From contig CAJJBL010000122.1 of NCBI GenBank assembly GCA_905182395.1, forward strand, positions 1 to 37,960: a stretch of 37,960 nt of DNA, written 5' to 3'. This stretch comes from an alpha proteobacterium SCGC AAA536-G10 (GTDB lineage Bacteria; Pseudomonadota; Alphaproteobacteria; Puniceispirillales; Marisalimonadaceae). Positions within the stretch are counted from its first letter, which is position 1. Each line of letters starts with the position of its first letter. Below the pieces are notes generated by a model, which did no database searches, was not told the DNA's origin, and saw nothing but the letters and a program-made list of their open reading frames with translations. The position numbers were made by a program, and so were the translations under genes. Positions 3,152 through 17,090 of the stretch are shown here, piece after piece.

Positions 3152-4123
3152 ATGGCCATAAATGCGCTGAGTTATATTGGGGTAAATTCAGATAAGTTAG
3201 AGGATTGGGATAGTTTTGCAGTTCAGCATCTCGGCATGCAGAAAATTGATAATGGATCAAAGTCTTTGTCATTCAGAATGGACAATCAAAAACAAAGATT
3301 TTCTATATCTGGTGAATCAGGAGATGCACTAGCTTACCTTGGCTGGGAAGTTGAAAAAAAAACTGATCTGGAGATGTACGCTAATAGATTAGATAATATT
3401 AATGTATTAGTTATGGAAGGTACTAAACATTTAACGGATAAAAGATTTGTTGAGGATTTAATATATTTTGATGACCCAGCAGGAAATAGAATTGAGTTAG
3501 TTTATAAACCTCATTTGGATAAAGATCCATTTATTTCAGGAAGACCAATATCAGGCTTTAAAACTGACATATGTGGTTTGGGTCATGCTGTATTACATGT
3601 TTCAAATATTGATGATTTAATTCCGTTTTATAAAGATATCTTAGATTTTAAAATAAGTGATTATAGTTTTGATCCAATATCATTATGTTTTTTTCATGTA
3701 AATGGACGGCACCATAGTTTTGCTATGATAGGAACTGGTCAACAAGGGTTTCACCATTTTATGATTGAATATCAAAATCTAGACGACATCGGTCAAGGCT
3801 ATGATCTTCTTCAATTTAAAGAAAATGCTATTGCCTACACCCTAGGAAGGCACACTAACGATTATATGACTTCATTTTATGCTCATACACCATCAGGGTT
3901 TTTTGTAGAAAATGGTTGGGGTGGTAGAATTATTGATCCAAGCACCTGGGTGCCTCATGAAACAGATGTAGGCCCTAGCTTTTGGGGTCATGAAAGATTA
4001 TATCTCCCAGATATGGAACGATTAAAATTTAGAAAAAAACGTTTAGAAACAGCCAGACAAGGAAACCAATCTCCTATGATTATTGATTGTCCGTGGCTTT
4101 ACCAAAACGTTAAAAATAAATAA
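3152..4123 (+). CDS. Type I extradiol ring-cleavage dioxygenase (BphC-like, VOC fold)
   Basis: The 323-residue two-domain VOC protein carries the complete active-site set of 2,3-dihydroxybiphenyl-type dioxygenases. The iron ligands are His145 (GLGHAVLH), His202 (HHFMIEY) and Glu253 (FVENGWG). The acid/base residues are the His pair in NGRHHSF (about 187-188), His234 (LGRHTND) and Tyr243 (SFYAHTPSG). Such enzymes use Fe(II) and O2 to open catechols next to the diol (meta-cleavage). Gene order with an FAD hydroxylase and an FAH-family hydrolase fits breakdown of an aromatic acid. The exact catechol cannot be read from sequence. The start follows a GAAGG site and is first in its operon. Confidence 0.92.
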   Translation: MAINALSYIGVNSDKLEDWDSFAVQHLGMQKIDNGSKSLSFRMDNQKQRFSISGESGDALAYLGWEVEKKTDLEMYANRLDNINVLVMEGTKHLTDKRFVEDLIYFDDPAGNRIELVYKPHLDKDPFISGRPISGFKTDICGLGHAVLHVSNIDDLIPFYKDILDFKISDYSFDPISLCFFHVNGRHHSFAMIGTGQQGFHHFMIEYQNLDDIGQGYDLLQFKENAIAYTLGRHTNDYMTSFYAHTPSGFFVENGWGGRIIDPSTWVPHETDVGPSFWGHERLYLPDMERLKFRKKRLETARQGNQSPMIIDCPWLYQNVKNK

Positions 4124-4162
4124 ATATCATTTATGTAATGTTAAAAATGGACTGAGTTTAAT

Positions 4163-5626
4163 ATGAACAATTTGGATTTTGATGTTGTAATTGTAGGATT
4201 AGGGCCAACTGGTGGCACTTTGGCAAATTTACTAGCTATGAATAATGTTTCCGTTCTTATTTTAGAAAAAGAGGCAAATATATACAACCTTCCTCGTGCA
4301 GTACATTTTGATGATGAGATAATGAGAGTTTTTCAAACTATAGGTATTACCAAAAGTTTGTCTAAAAAATTAATTATTAATAAGGGGACAAAGTTTATAG
4401 ATGATAATGGTGAATTACTATTAGATTGGCCAAGACCAAAGAAAATTACAGAAAATGGATGGTACCCAAGTTATCGGTTTCATCAACCAGATTTAGAGAG
4501 AAGCTTAAGATATAATTTAAAAAAATATAAAAATGTTGCTACAGTTCAAAATGCTCAAGTTTATAAGACTGTTAATAAAAAAAATTATGTAGAAGTAAAT
4601 TATAAAAATACTAAAACTAATAAAATTTACTCTTTAAAATCAAAATATATAATTGGCTGTGATGGTGCAAATTCGTTCCTTAGGAATGAAATTAATTCAG
4701 AAATGGAAAATTTAGGTTTTGAGCAACGTTGGGCTGTTATTGATGTAATTTTAAAAAGAAAAAAAAAGGATTTACCTGATAGAACAATTCAATATTGTAG
4801 TCAATTTAGGCCAGCAACTTATTGTAGAAATGTAGGTAAGAGAAGAAGATGGGAAATAGCTCTAAAGGATAACGAAAGCTCAAACACCTTTTTTAAAGAA
4901 AAATCACTCTGGAAATTTTTAAGTCGATGGGTTACCCCAGATGATGTTCATATTGAAAGAAAGACTATATATAAGTTTCAATCTGCAATAGCTAAAAAAT
5001 GGAGAAAAGGACGTATATTTTTAGTAGGAGACGCCGCCCATCTAACCCCACCTTTCATGGGACAAGGCATGTGCGCTGGAATAAGAGACGCTTCAAATTT
5101 AGCTTGGAAGATTAGTATTAGTTGTCAAAAGGGTCATAATGAACAATTGCTTGATACATACCAATCAGAAAGAGTTAGCAATGTCAGAGACTATATAAAA
5201 ACAGCAATGAAAATGGGAGAATTACTTAATTCTATTGGAGGATCAAAAGTTTCAGACACTGTATTTATTCAACCTGATGGATCAATTAAGATGAATACTA
5301 TTAAACCAAAACTTGGAAAAGGATTAGGAAATCCAAAAGATTCTAATAGAGGAAAAATATTTCCTTCCTTTAAAAATGAATTGGAAAAAGATATTGATGT
5401 TTTATATTCGTGTGAACCTATATTAATTACTAATAGAAAAGTAAATAAAAAGGAATTTCCTATTAAAACTTTTGATATTAAAGATATTCCTAAAATTGAC
5501 ATGATACTAAAAAAATTTAAAAGTAACGCGTTAATACTTCGTCCTGACAGATACGTTTTTGCTAGTAGTAATGAAAAAGACTTAGTAAAATTTTCTAAAT
5601 CATCTATCGATCAAATTTATAATTAA
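4163..5626 (+). CDS. FAD-dependent aromatic monooxygenase (MhpA-like)
   Basis: The 487-residue flavoprotein hydroxylase has an N-terminal dinucleotide fold with GLGPTG (12-17) and the DG motif GCDGANSFLR (about 165-174, Asp167). It also has the ribityl-binding motif FLVGDAAHLTPPFMGQG (about 286-302, Asp290), with the Pro-Pro typical of class A phenol and 3-(3-hydroxyphenyl)propionate hydroxylases. The likely role is NAD(P)H-dependent ring hydroxylation to make the catechol cleaved by the neighbouring dioxygenase. It is shorter than E. coli MhpA, with a reduced C-terminal part. It lies 39 bases after the dioxygenase gene in the same operon. The substrate is unknown. Confidence 0.9.
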   Translation: MNNLDFDVVIVGLGPTGGTLANLLAMNNVSVLILEKEANIYNLPRAVHFDDEIMRVFQTIGITKSLSKKLIINKGTKFIDDNGELLLDWPRPKKITENGWYPSYRFHQPDLERSLRYNLKKYKNVATVQNAQVYKTVNKKNYVEVNYKNTKTNKIYSLKSKYIIGCDGANSFLRNEINSEMENLGFEQRWAVIDVILKRKKKDLPDRTIQYCSQFRPATYCRNVGKRRRWEIALKDNESSNTFFKEKSLWKFLSRWVTPDDVHIERKTIYKFQSAIAKKWRKGRIFLVGDAAHLTPPFMGQGMCAGIRDASNLAWKISISCQKGHNEQLLDTYQSERVSNVRDYIKTAMKMGELLNSIGGSKVSDTVFIQPDGSIKMNTIKPKLGKGLGNPKDSNRGKIFPSFKNELEKDIDVLYSCEPILITNRKVNKKEFPIKTFDIKDIPKIDMILKKFKSNALILRPDRYVFASSNEKDLVKFSKSSIDQIYN

Positions 5627-5640
5627 TAAGGTTTTGCCAA

Positions 5641-6423
5641 ATGTCTGGTTTTGAAAGATATAATAAAATTTTAAATTTGTTTTCAGAACAAAGAAATTCT
5701 TTGACAGTAGCAGAAATTTCACAAGAGTTAAAAGTTCCAGCAAGTACTGTTTATAGAATAGTTCGTGAAATGGTTTTGGCGGAGTTTATTGAGAGTGCTG
5801 CTGGGTCTTACTTTAGATTAGGGCAAGCATTTATTAAATTTAATCGAATTATCAATTTGTCAGATCCTTTAATTCAGGCAGGAGAACCATTTCTCAAAAA
5901 ACTAGCAAATGAAAACCCGATTCCTAGCACAAATATATTAGCAAGGTTATTTGGTAATAAGGTAATGTGTGTTGCGGATTTTAAACACTCAACTTTTAAA
6001 AATAATACAAGTTATCAAAAAGGAAGGTTAATGCCATTGCTTTATGGAGCAACGTCTAGAGCTATCATTATGCAAATAACAGAGAAACGCTTAAATAATA
6101 TTTTAAATCTAGAAGGTTTAAATAATGATCTGCAAAAAGAAATATTTATAAAAGGGTTAGATCAAGACAAAAAAAAAGGTTTTTGTAAAACTGAAGCTCA
6201 AGTTGACATTGGATTAATTGGCTTTGCTTTATCAATAAGCAATAAAAAATTAGGAATTGAAGCTTCATTAAGCTCAATATTTAACATTAGCGATTTTCGT
6301 CCTGAGCATGAACCATCTATATACGCAAATTTGTCAAGTTACGCTTTATTAATAGAGAGATATATAAATAAAATATTTATTGATACTGAGGCTTATCATA
6401 ACAATTATTTAAATAAGGATTAA
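5641..6423 (+). CDS. IclR-family transcriptional regulator
   Basis: The 260-residue protein has an N-terminal winged helix-turn-helix (about residues 5-60; LTVAEISQELKVPASTVYR is the HTH). An IclR-type effector domain follows, visible in PLLYGATSRAIIMQ (about 123-136) and KGFCKTEAQVDIGLIGFAL (about 179-197). IclR proteins commonly control aromatic catabolism operons as activators or repressors responding to a pathway intermediate. It sits inside the operon, 14 bases after the hydroxylase and 1 base before the next dioxygenase gene, so it is probably autoregulated together with the pathway. A palindrome at 3055-3078 is a candidate binding site. Confidence 0.92.
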   Translation: MSGFERYNKILNLFSEQRNSLTVAEISQELKVPASTVYRIVREMVLAEFIESAAGSYFRLGQAFIKFNRIINLSDPLIQAGEPFLKKLANENPIPSTNILARLFGNKVMCVADFKHSTFKNNTSYQKGRLMPLLYGATSRAIIMQITEKRLNNILNLEGLNNDLQKEIFIKGLDQDKKKGFCKTEAQVDIGLIGFALSISNKKLGIEASLSSIFNISDFRPEHEPSIYANLSSYALLIERYINKIFIDTEAYHNNYLNKD

Positions 6424-6424
6424 A

Positions 6425-7267
6425 ATGATGTTAACTGGAGTTCAAGCAGATTTATATCTTCATCATCTTGAAATACAAAGTAATAACCCAGATAATCTGG
6501 CAAAATTTTATTCAACCGCTATGAACATGCAAATAAATAAAATCACTAATCAAAAGATTATATGTAATGGTCCATCTAGAAAAATAATTATTACTCAGGG
6601 ACATAATAAAACCCTAAGTTACGCAGGTATGGTTTGCAGAAGTGAAAAAAATCTAATCGGATTTAGAAAGTTTTTAGTTATGAATCAGGTCAGTATTAAA
6701 CAATTTAAATCAGAAATTTATAAAACTGGATCTTTTTCTATTCAAGATCCTGATGATAATATCATATGTTTTGGTGTTTTAAATGATAATGAAAAATTAT
6801 ATTCAGAAGGAATAAATGGACCTTTACAACACTTGACCTTTGCTTCAGAAAACGTAGAAGCTTTTCAAAATTTTTACGAAAAAAAACTTGGGTTTGACGT
6901 CACTGATAGAGTTGTAAAATCAGATGGTAAGCTAGCAACTTGTTTCACCACATCTAATCACGAACACCACACAATAGCATGTTTTAAGTCAGTAAAAAAA
7001 GGAATGGATCATCATTCTTATGAAGCTGGTGAGTGGAATCATATAAAGACTTGGTGCGATCACCTTGCCTCACACGATATACAATTAATGTGGGGACCTG
7101 GTAGACACGGACCAGGAAATAACTTATTTATTTTTATTGAAGATATTGATGGGAATTGGATTGAAATTTCAGCTGAATTAGAAACGGTACATGGCCGACC
7201 GACAAAGAACTGGCCACAATCAGAAAGAACTCTTAATCTGTGGGGAAAAGCAATTTTGAGATCATAA
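6425..7267 (+). CDS. Second extradiol-dioxygenase-type VOC protein
   Basis: The 280-residue protein has two glyoxalase/VOC modules, a degenerate N-terminal one (about 9-118) and a C-terminal one (about 130-250). The C-terminal module keeps the metal triad of type I extradiol enzymes: His136 (PLQHLTF), His196/197 (MDHHSYE) and Glu247 (NWIEISAE). His181/182 (EHHTIACF) and His228 (PGRHGPGN) occupy the places of the BphC acid/base histidines. It may cleave a second catechol or a later intermediate, or replace the first enzyme under other conditions. It starts 1 base after the IclR stop behind AAGGA, so it is translationally coupled. Two diverged extradiol-type genes in one operon is notable. Confidence 0.85.
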   Translation: MMLTGVQADLYLHHLEIQSNNPDNLAKFYSTAMNMQINKITNQKIICNGPSRKIIITQGHNKTLSYAGMVCRSEKNLIGFRKFLVMNQVSIKQFKSEIYKTGSFSIQDPDDNIICFGVLNDNEKLYSEGINGPLQHLTFASENVEAFQNFYEKKLGFDVTDRVVKSDGKLATCFTTSNHEHHTIACFKSVKKGMDHHSYEAGEWNHIKTWCDHLASHDIQLMWGPGRHGPGNNLFIFIEDIDGNWIEISAELETVHGRPTKNWPQSERTLNLWGKAILRS

Positions 7268-7281
7268 GAAAAGGAAAAAAG

Positions 7282-8139
7282 ATGAAGTTATTAAGTTTTA
7301 TAAGGCTAGGAAAATCAAGCTTTGGTGCTGTAGTCAATGATGGTGTTATAGATTTAACTGGTAAATTAGATCCAGATGTAAATAGTATTAAAGATTTAAT
7401 ATCTTTGGATATGCAAGATCAAGCTGAAGAATATATTGCAGGCAAATCAAAAGATTTTTCATTATCTGACATTAGTTTATTGCCAGTAATACCGGATCCA
7501 CAAAAAATTATGTGTGTTGGCTTAAACTATATGGAACATAAGAAAGAAACTGGTAGACCAGATGTTGATAATCCAACAATTTTTACTAGATTTGCAGATT
7601 CACAGGTGGCTCATTTGCAGCCAATGATTAAACCAGATAAATCAGAACGTTTTGATTATGAAGCTGAAATGGCTATTATTATAGGTAAAGGAGGAAGATT
7701 TATCTCTGAAAGTGAATCAATGAAACATATAGCTGGTTACGCTTGTTATAATGATGGAAGCATAAGGGATTATCAAAGGCATACTTCTCAATACACTCCT
7801 GGAAAAACATTTCCTGGAACTGGTGGATTTGGACCTTTTATGGTTACTCCTGACGAGGTAGGGGATTATACTAAACTTCCAATTGAATTAAGATTAAATG
7901 GTAATGTTATGCAGAAGGCAACTCTTGCTGACCTTATATTTCCAATTCCTAGACTTATTAGTTATATTTCAGAATTTACTGCTTTATCGGCAGGGGATGT
8001 AATTGTTACTGGTACACCTGGTGGAGTAGGCGATAAAAGAACTCCTGCGGTTTACATGGTTCCAGGAGATGTTGTTGAGGTAGATATTGGAATGTTAGGT
8101 ATTTTAAAAAATCCAATAATTGCGGCTCCAAAGATATAA
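7282..8139 (+). CDS. Fumarylacetoacetate hydrolase (FAH) family protein
   Basis: The 285-residue protein shows the FAH catalytic domain: PQKIMCVGLNYMEHKKETG (about 74-91), metal ligands in the ExE motif DYEAEMA (Glu127, Glu129) and Asp158 (CYNDGS), and GDVIVTGTPGGVGDKR near the C-terminus. Family members hydrolyse acylpyruvates or decarboxylate/isomerise meta-cleavage products. Here it would process the ring-opened product of the dioxygenases. I choose the ATG at 7282 because AAGGAAAAA lies directly upstream; an in-frame earlier start at 7240 would overlap the preceding gene and add an unconserved extension. It is the last clear member of the catabolic operon. Confidence 0.92.
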   Translation: MKLLSFIRLGKSSFGAVVNDGVIDLTGKLDPDVNSIKDLISLDMQDQAEEYIAGKSKDFSLSDISLLPVIPDPQKIMCVGLNYMEHKKETGRPDVDNPTIFTRFADSQVAHLQPMIKPDKSERFDYEAEMAIIIGKGGRFISESESMKHIAGYACYNDGSIRDYQRHTSQYTPGKTFPGTGGFGPFMVTPDEVGDYTKLPIELRLNGNVMQKATLADLIFPIPRLISYISEFTALSAGDVIVTGTPGGVGDKRTPAVYMVPGDVVEVDIGMLGILKNPIIAAPKI

Positions 8140-13639: not shown

Positions 13640-15691
13640 CTATCCATTTAAAAATTTGGGAAACCAAAGTGCTATATCTGGGATAAAGAGAACAAGCATC
13701 ATACCTATTATTTGTAATCCAATAAAAGGAATAACAGCTGCAAATATTTCTTGTAAAGTTATCTCAGGTGGAGCAACTGATTTTAGCCAGAAACATGCTG
13801 GTCCAAATGGAGGTGATAGAAAGTATATTTGAATATTCATTACAAATAACACTCCAAACCATACAGCGGCCCATTCTGGCTCAAGACCAAGTTCAGGAGC
13901 CATTCCAACTACAACTGGGGCAAAGACTGGCACAGTGATAAAAGCAATCGCAATCCATTCCATAAAAGTTCCTAATACAACTAATATAAGCATCATGACA
14001 GCAACCACGCCAAGTGCAGGTAAGCCAAGATTTTCAAATAATGATCGCATGAAATCTGCACCACCAATTAGATTATATATACCTACAAAAGCAACTGCTC
14101 CAAGTATTAACCAAACGATTGTACCCACAGTTGACATCGTACCAGCCAAAGCTTGTTGAAGAAGATTCCAACTAAAAGAGTTTCTAACAAAAGCCACAAT
14201 GATTGCTCCAACAACTCCTACTGAAGCTGCTTCTGTAACAGATGCTATTCCTCCATAAATAGATCCCATCACACAAAAAATTAAAAAACAACACATCAAC
14301 ACAGCAGATTTTTTTTCCTTGGTAAGTTTTATTGCTGATCCACGACGTTCTGCAACTTCCTCTGCAGTTGGAGCTAAAGAGTGGTTAAAAGTACATCTAA
14401 CTAATGTGTATATTGCATAAAAGCATGCCAACATTAATCCGGGAACTGCTCCAGCCATAAATAAGTCTCCAATAGCAACATTTGCTGAAAGACCATATAC
14501 TATCATTATAATGCTAGGAGGTATTAATGTTGCCAAAGCTCCGGATGCACAGACAACACCTATAGCTAACTTTTTATCGTACCCCAACCTTAACATTTGT
14601 GGTAAAGCAACTAGTCCTAACATTACTATTTCTCCGCCCATTACTCCAGACATGGCAGCTAAAATAACAGCTACAACAATGGTTTGAATAGCAACGCCGC
14701 CTCTAAGCTTACCTGCAAATATTTGCATGGCATCAAAAAGGTCTTCTGCAACCCCTGCTTTTTCAAGAATTGAAGCCATTAATACGAACAATGGAACAGC
14801 TACTAATGGGTACTTTTCTAGAAGGCCATAAGCATTTGTAGACACTAGTAGCATCCCAGGATAACCATAATAAAAAAGAGCACTGAATATAGAAACAAAT
14901 AAAGTAACAACGCCTAAAGGCATGCCTGTCATCATTAATAAAACCATTGCAGCTACAATAATAAAACTAGCAGCTCCAATGGATATGTCATCCATATCAA
15001 CATACAAGTTTGGCTCAAGATAATATCCAACTGAACTATAAAAACCATTTATTGTTGCAACAATACCTGTTGCTTCAAAAGCATGTTCAATAAACACTAA
15101 AACAATTCTCAGAATAATTAATCCTGCAATTGCAGTAATAATATTTTTACCAATTTGTGATTTAAAATGCCTATATAAGTTTACTAATAATTGAGCTAAA
15201 TAAAGTGTAGCTCCTGAAACAAGCATTGTTTTTAAAATCAGAGGTTGAGGAGAATTCCATGCGCTGCCAGCTCTTTCAACGGCCATTACAGCTTCTATTG
15301 CTCTAACAATTGTCGCATCAATAAAGTACCATAATGCAATTACCCCAATAACATAAGCAAACAAATCTAAATACCATTGTTTTGCTTTACTTAACATAAT
15401 ATATATTACTGTAATACCAATGTGACGTTTATGAAGTGTTATATATCCTGCCGATAGCATCCAAGCACTTGCACACAAAACCATAACAGTTTCAAATACC
15501 CATTGTGTTGGCGAATGGAATAAATATCTAGATACAACCTCATAGCAAGTTAACAAGGCTGCAAATAAATAAAGTTGAGAAACAGCGAGTCCCATAAGTT
15601 TACTTATATGATCTACAAAATTTAAATTGTCTTTTGTAGGTGGAAAATTATCACTATCTATTATTTCATTAGAATTCATTTTTTGCCCCAT
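13640..15691 (-). CDS. dctQM: TRAP transporter fused small/large permease (DctQM)
   Basis: The 683-residue protein combines a DctQ-like N-terminal part (about 25-200, four membrane segments, with HSPTQWVFETVMVLCASAWM) and a DctM part (about 230-680). The DctM part includes PLFVLMASILEKAGVAEDLF, MSGVMGGEIVMLGLVALPQM, GALATLIPPSIIMIVYG and YFLSPPFGPACFW. Fused permeases are a known TRAP subtype. The binding protein is on the opposite strand at 15999, so the system is split into two divergent transcripts. An alternative start Met at residue 5 (15679) has a GGGG stretch at better spacing. No binding protein is encoded on this strand. Confidence 0.93.
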   Translation of the reverse strand: MGQKMNSNEIIDSDNFPPTKDNLNFVDHISKLMGLAVSQLYLFAALLTCYEVVSRYLFHSPTQWVFETVMVLCASAWMLSAGYITLHKRHIGITVIYIMLSKAKQWYLDLFAYVIGVIALWYFIDATIVRAIEAVMAVERAGSAWNSPQPLILKTMLVSGATLYLAQLLVNLYRHFKSQIGKNIITAIAGLIILRIVLVFIEHAFEATGIVATINGFYSSVGYYLEPNLYVDMDDISIGAASFIIVAAMVLLMMTGMPLGVVTLFVSIFSALFYYGYPGMLLVSTNAYGLLEKYPLVAVPLFVLMASILEKAGVAEDLFDAMQIFAGKLRGGVAIQTIVVAVILAAMSGVMGGEIVMLGLVALPQMLRLGYDKKLAIGVVCASGALATLIPPSIIMIVYGLSANVAIGDLFMAGAVPGLMLACFYAIYTLVRCTFNHSLAPTAEEVAERRGSAIKLTKEKKSAVLMCCFLIFCVMGSIYGGIASVTEAASVGVVGAIIVAFVRNSFSWNLLQQALAGTMSTVGTIVWLILGAVAFVGIYNLIGGADFMRSLFENLGLPALGVVAVMMLILVVLGTFMEWIAIAFITVPVFAPVVVGMAPELGLEPEWAAVWFGVLFVMNIQIYFLSPPFGPACFWLKSVAPPEITLQEIFAAVIPFIGLQIIGMMLVLFIPDIALWFPKFLNG

Positions 15692-15770
15692 AATTTGAAC
15701 GTGTTAATTATAACTTAGATTAATTAAATATTCAGTCCATTAAAAAAATTTTTTTCTTTTTAAATTAAAA

Positions 15771-15790
15771 TAAATAAATAAATAAATAAA
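15771..15790. repeat. Short tandem repeat (TAAA)5
   Basis: Five consecutive TAAA units lie in the 153-base divergent region between dctQM and the 40-aa protein gene. A tract like this can change length by slippage and alter promoter spacing, but in such AT-rich DNA it may simply be low complexity. Confidence 0.6.
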
Positions 15791-15844
15791 ATTAGTTGAA
15801 TTGTTTGTTTTTTTTCTTCATGGTGTGACAACAGGGAGGAACTT

Positions 15845-15967
15845 ATGGCATCAGAAGGTAGAAACGATCACGTAAAACACTACGGCCCTTGGGGTTGGAT
15901 AAGTGGATTTGTATTAGCTACAACTATACTAGTACTTATGTTTGCTATTGCAGATGGTTTTTCTTGA
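15845..15967 (+). CDS. Unannotated 40-residue single-pass membrane protein in the TRAP locus
   Basis: An ATG at 15845 behind a strong GGAGG site (15836-15840) opens a 40-codon frame ending in TGA at 15965. The protein has a charged, His-containing N-terminus (MASEGRNDHVKHY), an aromatic/glycine turn GPWGWISG, and one hydrophobic helix of about 18 residues (FVLATTILVLMFAIADG). It would be a small inner-membrane protein with a short tail at each side. It lies 31 bases upstream of dctP with the same orientation, so it is co-transcribed with it. It may be a small accessory subunit of the TRAP complex. I do not recognise a family; superficially it resembles small oxidase subunits but lacks their motifs. 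Confidence 0.75.
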   Translation: MASEGRNDHVKHYGPWGWISGFVLATTILVLMFAIADGFS

Positions 15968-15998: not shown

Positions 15999-17030
15999 AT
16001 GAAAATGAAAATAACAGGGATTTTAAGTGTTGCAGTTGCTGCATCAATTATGGTCTCAAATGTAAATGCTAAAACTATTAAAGTTCAAGCAAGTTCAAAG
16101 TCAGGAGACTGGGCTCATAAATTTATGACTGAACAGTATGCTCCTAAATTAAAAGCTATGACTGGTGGAGCTTTAGATATTAAAGTTTTGCCTACTGGAG
16201 CTGTTGTTCCATACAAAGAGAGTATTGATGCTGTTGCTAGTGGAATATTGAATGGTGATTTAAATGCTATTTCTTATTTTTCCGGAAGAGATCCTGCTTT
16301 TGCTGTTATAGGTGATTTAATTGCGGGATGGGATACTCCTGAGCAATTACAAGCTTATTGTATGACTGGTGGCGGAAGAGAAATGCTACAAAAAATATAT
16401 GATGGAACAAAGGCAACTGCAGGTAAAATCCACGTTATAGGATGTAGCCCTTATTCAAAAGAAGCTTTAGTATCTAAAAATAAAATAACAACTGTTGCAG
16501 GTTTAAAAGGTGTAAAAATTAGATCTCCTGAAGGTTTGGCAGCGGAAGTTTTTAGATTAGTTGGAGCAGCTCCTTCTGCTTTGCCATTTTCTGAGGTTTA
16601 TACTTCTTTAGAAAAAGGTATAGTTGATGCTGCAGACGCTTCTGCTTACATAAACAACACTAATTCAGGTATGCATAAAATTGCAAAGTTTCCGATTTAT
16701 CCTGGTATTCATTCAATGGCAAATCTTCAATTCATAATGAATAAAAAATTATGGAATAAAATGTCAAAAGATCATCAAACTGCATTAGAAGTTTGGTATA
16801 TAGCTGCTTACACAGAAATGAGAAGAGCTGCTGATGTTGAAGATAGAGAGCAAGTAGCAAAAGATAAAGCTGGCGGTAAAATTACTGTTGTAGATTGGGC
16901 TCAGGAAGAACGTGATAAATTCAGAAAAATTTCTGTAGGTGCATGGGAAAATTTTGCAAAGAAAAGTCCTTTAGCTAGAGAAGCTTTGAATTCACAGTTA
17001 GCTTTCATGAAGAAAATGGGAATGCTATAA
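15999..17030 (+). CDS. dctP: TRAP transporter substrate-binding protein (DctP), second system
   Basis: The 343-residue periplasmic protein has a signal peptide (MKMKITG, hydrophobic core, cleavage after NVNA-K near residue 25) and the DctP core. That core includes VKIRSPEGLAAEVFRLVGAA (about 168-187), with the conserved arginine that usually contacts the ligand carboxylate, and SLEKGIVDAADASAY (about 202-216). It should deliver an organic acid to the fused DctQM encoded divergently. AGGAGG 7 bases upstream supports the start at 15999. Two unpaired-looking cysteines (about 121 and 148) could form a disulfide. It is followed by a strong terminator. Ligand identity is unknown. Confidence 0.94.
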   Translation: MKMKITGILSVAVAASIMVSNVNAKTIKVQASSKSGDWAHKFMTEQYAPKLKAMTGGALDIKVLPTGAVVPYKESIDAVASGILNGDLNAISYFSGRDPAFAVIGDLIAGWDTPEQLQAYCMTGGGREMLQKIYDGTKATAGKIHVIGCSPYSKEALVSKNKITTVAGLKGVKIRSPEGLAAEVFRLVGAAPSALPFSEVYTSLEKGIVDAADASAYINNTNSGMHKIAKFPIYPGIHSMANLQFIMNKKLWNKMSKDHQTALEVWYIAAYTEMRRAADVEDREQVAKDKAGGKITVVDWAQEERDKFRKISVGAWENFAKKSPLAREALNSQLAFMKKMGML

Positions 17031-17053: not shown

Positions 17054-17090
17054 AAAACTTGCTGAAAGTAAATTTCAGCAAGTTTTTTTT
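17054..17090 (+). terminator. Rho-independent terminator after dctP
   Basis: A perfect 14-bp stem (AAAACTTGCTGAAA at 17054-17067 and its complement at 17073-17086) with a 5-base loop is followed directly by a run of T to 17090. It lies 23 bases after the dctP stop. The T tract touches the stop codon of the convergent amidase gene. Confidence 0.9.

Follow-up and report, generated by a model that had tools for sequence, protein, structure and literature searches.

A conserved 40-residue gene in a TRAP transporter locus

The window, by which we mean the whole 37,960-nt stretch of DNA analyzed here, encodes a 40-residue protein with a single predicted helix at positions 15,845-15,967 of the forward strand. 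We propose, with a probability of about 0.6 and by analogy with small helices of other membrane complexes, that one clade of TRAP transporters includes it as a small fourth membrane subunit, which would bind and stabilize the DctQM scaffold. TRAP transporters have been described as consisting of P, Q and M subunits only (PMC9971032), and all three are encoded at this locus, with Pfam matches to DctP, DctQ and DctM above cut-off. Here dctQ and dctM form a single fused ORF: the permease gene dctQM (683 residues, PF04290 and PF06808) occupies 13,640-15,691 on the reverse strand and diverges from the small gene and from dctP, which encodes the 343-residue substrate-binding protein (15,999-17,030, forward strand; PF03480, E 3.9e-37).

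The earlier note on this DNA had described an ORF with an ATG, a ribosome site and dctP 31 bases downstream, and each of these is present: the ATG at 15,845 lies 5 nt downstream of a GGGAGG Shine-Dalgarno sequence (15,834-15,839, forward strand), the stop codon ends at 15,967, and a gap of 31 nt separates it from the dctP start at 15,999. Homologues have similar ribosome sites, mostly purine-rich, and their start codons include ATG, GTG and TTG. The 153 bp that separate the small gene from the divergent dctQM (15,692-15,844) would hold the promoter, and a promoter scan of this region gave a score not above that of shuffled sequences. A terminator-like hairpin followed by a T run 3' of dctP (17,054-17,086, forward strand) likely marks the end of the small gene-dctP unit. 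A search of the genome found one copy of the small protein. The view that the gene is too short for routine gene callers holds for Thalassospira, where it is absent from the annotation, but not throughout: among records with gene tables, homologues in Acuticoccus, Sulfitobacter and Marinovum have been called and named “hypothetical protein”.

Those relatives that have names mark the genome as an alphaproteobacterium of SAR116 type. Strong homologues occur in 47 of 101 relatives, and every one of the distinct SAR116 small proteins that we read out is exactly 40 residues long (39–60 residues for homologues of all lineages). Across 34 distinct coding sequences, pN/pS is 0.42 in the coding frame and 0.88-0.89 in the other two frames; these alternative frames are interrupted by stop codons in 34/34 (+1) and 32/34 (+2) of the sequences. 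The median dN/dS of the SAR116 small gene is 0.16, calculated from pairs with usable dS, which is the synonymous-biased pattern of change that the earlier note had proposed to look for. The same note had named absence of conservation at the same transporter, and stops or frameshifts in orthologues, as grounds for abandoning its claim: the gene is conserved beside the same dctQM and dctP, and the homologues of the 47 relatives contain neither internal stops nor frameshifts. The SAR116 frame is under purifying selection, and the small ORF is confirmed as a real, conserved gene, far beyond chance.

Alignment of 15 SAR116 sequences shows R6, D8, Y13, G14, G21, M32, F33 and the ADGF of positions 36-39 to be invariant; over the small-protein family G14 is invariant, and G21 and F33 are near-invariant. 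Within a genus the small protein retains 68% identity vs about 96% for dctM and dctP, and so diverges faster than its neighbors. The structure prediction for the small protein consists of one helix, residues 15-38, with a mean pLDDT of 77.7 that rises to 96 over residues 21-30. This agrees with the single helix noticed at the outset; the “GPWGWISG turn” described with it is instead the start of that helix in the model. The protein displays the features of its family, namely one predicted membrane helix and the conserved [YF]G, G21 and F33. For DctQM, AlphaFold with 27 close homologues yielded a poor model (pLDDT 45).

Searches of Pfam, NCBIfam and the PDB returned no family match for the small protein. 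Matches to YqzM, DUF1029, PGF-CTERM and MtrF, which like the small protein are short or single-helix segments, were at chance level: they involved 1-2 of the 32 members, with E about 0.01 or worse.

Linkage to TRAP genes in SAR116 and in other lineages

Orthologues of dctP (at least 57% identity) are found in exactly the 47 of 101 genomes that have the small protein, and in 0 of the 54 others (Fisher 6e-30, with relatedness ignored). All SAR116 loci examined have the same gene order, with dctQM diverging from the small gene and dctP; one locus (L035) starts at the small gene, its dctQM side being cut off. The coordinates of the other SAR116 matches to the small gene place them within 50 bp of dctP.

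Outside SAR116, profile searches were performed over whole genomes with no position bias. Strong matches were located only beside TRAP genes (dctP or dctM) wherever the flank was available; one member (L093) sits at a contig start, with its upstream neighbor beyond the contig. Members are present in 15 of 36 genomes of the Nisaea order, where the Nisaea protein has 45 residues and one genome has the SAR116-type gene order, in 12 of 149 genomes of a further alphaproteobacterial family, and in several other alphaproteobacterial families. The one carrier that is not an alphaproteobacterium (G715) belongs to the same phylum. In nearly all of these non-SAR116 loci the order is P-QM-small, with the small gene at most a few tens of nucleotides 3' of dctM or slightly overlapping it. 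In Sulfitobacter dubius the small gene precedes dctP and diverges from dctQM. As the small gene lies 3' of dctM in other lineages, its linkage to the transporter outlives the change in gene order.

A tBLASTn search of plasmids with two of the small homologues gave only one true relative, and plasmid loci were therefore sought, and found, through dctM. The association extends to unfused Q and M, albeit by a weak profile match: on Marinovum algicola plasmid pMaD8 (L193:6287-6421), a divergent 44-residue protein, AKP00048.1, is encoded 3' of dctM. Weak profile matches within long ORFs are due to chance. A candidate Rosetta-stone fusion to DctM in genome G505 was ruled out, the open frame upstream not being the dctM frame.

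Restriction to one DctM clade

In a tree of 76 DctM sequences, all 53 carriers and the weak Marinovum case fall in a single clade of 56 (SH-aLRT 100), and the 20 sequences outside it have no small protein. Many of the sequences in this tree were found through the small protein itself; in the sample collected through DctM only, a clear member accompanies 14 of 17 sequences of the clade vs 0 of 20 outside it (Fisher p 1e-7). The window contains a natural control: a second TRAP locus on the reverse strand (71-2965), with separate DctP, DctQ (175 aa) and DctM (438 aa), has no homologue of the small protein. Adjoining this second system, the region 3152-8139 encodes two extradiol-dioxygenase-like proteins, an FAD monooxygenase-like protein, an IclR-type regulator and a fumarylacetoacetase-like hydrolase, a cluster which, judged by sequence, resembles one for aromatic or related catabolism.

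In two members of the clade, G294 and G386, no family member adjoins dctM, and each has only a weak, displaced candidate. Such candidates are present in three f84 genomes, in which a small membrane ORF with the pattern MxEEDPNDPMPDRM.IWTT..GYG is conserved: in G386 (L199:6315-6467, reverse strand) it is convergent with the clade dctM, and in G294 (L243) and G1238 (L242) it is beside a threonine aldolase gene. This ORF may be related to the small subunit and have been displaced, or it may have no relation to it.

Nineteen DctM positions set the clade apart, located between residues 260 and 633 of the fused DctQM (window 13,640-14,971, reverse strand); examples are N286 vs R, A387/L389 vs G/M, E578 vs D and Y623 vs S. 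They suggest a distinct substrate or ion site. The clade-marking residues are spread throughout the DctM sequence and single out no docking site, and the restriction to this clade is therefore confounded with descent.

Proposed role and alternative explanations

The QM core is complete without the small protein: residues 22-681 of DctQM align with residues 39-653 of the solved fused SiaQM (8thi). Because this alignment runs from end to end, the small helix is an extra element and not a replacement for part of the permease, and the idea that it substitutes for the Q-M fusion helix was ruled out, Q and M being already fused. The locus has the same standard P (PF03480), Q (PF04290) and M (PF06808) as the DctPQM and SiaPQM systems of Haemophilus and Photobacterium, and its Q and M are joined in one chain like those of HiSiaQM, but a conserved fourth gene is added to them. 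In TRAP transporters of solved structure, the transport domain moves against a fixed scaffold that is made larger by Q (PMC9971032). The extra fusion helix of HiSiaQM adds to this scaffold and encloses a lipid (PMC10942642). Whereas that helix is part of the fused chain, the small helix is encoded by a separate gene, in a locus where Q and M are already fused.

The small protein would span the inner membrane once, with a short polar N-terminus, a helix at residues 15-38, almost no tail, and presumably an N-in/C-out orientation. Most plausibly, by analogy with CydX and AcrZ, the helix with its conserved Gly and Phe residues packs on and stabilizes the scaffold; the contact would most likely be with Q and the scaffold portion of M, which together make up the fixed scaffold, and could stabilize or tune the DctQM complex. 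Co-transcription with dctP (in SAR116 and Sulfitobacter) or with dctM (elsewhere) would allow the small protein to be made in step with the transporter. For CydX, a 37-residue subunit of cytochrome bd oxidase, the evidence was of the same kind, a linkage to only one type of CydA that is restricted by clade (PMC4325964); like the small protein, it has a single helix and few conserved residues, is encoded in the operon of its partner and accompanies a single clade of its large subunit (PMC4325964). It belongs to a different complex, no sequence similarity was detected in Pfam, and none of the 32 members searched there matched CydX / YbgT-YccB. AcrZ, a small single helix bound to the AcrB pump (PMC7267776), provides a functional model of a small single-helix transporter partner; no sequence relation to it was found, and AcrZ tunes an efflux pump whereas TRAP transporters are binding-protein-dependent importers.

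The initial suggestion, that the protein is a small fourth subunit in the membrane or an assembly factor, is supported by the 1:1 co-occurrence with dctP, the two gene orders and the single permease clade. The second half of that suggestion is the main rival to a subunit: a membrane chaperone acting outside the working transporter, for DctQM insertion, maturation or protection from proteolysis. We consider this unlikely, though a serious competitor, since the linkage and co-occurrence data are equally compatible with it, and rapid divergence of a lone helix would be in keeping with a loosely attached factor. The constant presence of the gene next to the transporter, and the invariant or near-invariant Gly and Phe residues through the helix, fit a stable helix-helix contact, but are not decisive. 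It is improbable that the protein has its own job, such as uptake sensing or action on another membrane target, and merely travels with the transporter. Binding to DctQM is our inference, and the weakly similar ORFs of G294 and G1238 are beside a threonine aldolase gene instead; however, the linkage holds through two gene orders and many families, and is confined to a single clade of permeases. An ORF this short, with a strong ribosome site and with dctP starting 31 nt downstream, could also be a leader peptide or translational coupler controlling dctP, with an unimportant product. This reading is largely refuted and retains very little probability, because in most lineages the small gene comes last, after dctM, where it is unable to lead dctP, and the amino acids are conserved beyond the frame alone. 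A functionless chance ORF is refuted by the homologues in 47 of 101 relatives, the constant 40-residue length and the dN/dS of 0.16, and its probability is negligible.

If the small protein is a subunit, the whole TRAP clade could be four-part, with a single-helix component that is stoichiometric, functionally required, overlooked for its size, and alters the scaffold of the elevator or the way in which the binding protein docks. We hold this broader claim tentatively, at odds a little short of even. TRAP transporters are widespread bacterial importers of organic acids, and structural work on them, which is intense, treats them as machines of three parts. A true fourth membrane part would make any reconstitution of this clade from P, Q and M only incomplete, and would serve as a natural handle on the scaffold in the elevator mechanism. 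It would also give many genes that are unannotated or named “hypothetical protein” a proposed function. We found no description of an extra TRAP component in the open-licence literature, earlier mention elsewhere being possible.

Neighboring genes, for example those encoding glycerate kinase and IlvD/EDD dehydratases, hint that the substrate of the transporter is probably a 2-hydroxy or sugar acid. On pMaD8, the gene next after that of AKP00048.1 encodes a dihydroxyacid/phosphogluconate dehydratase, which hints at a sugar-acid substrate.
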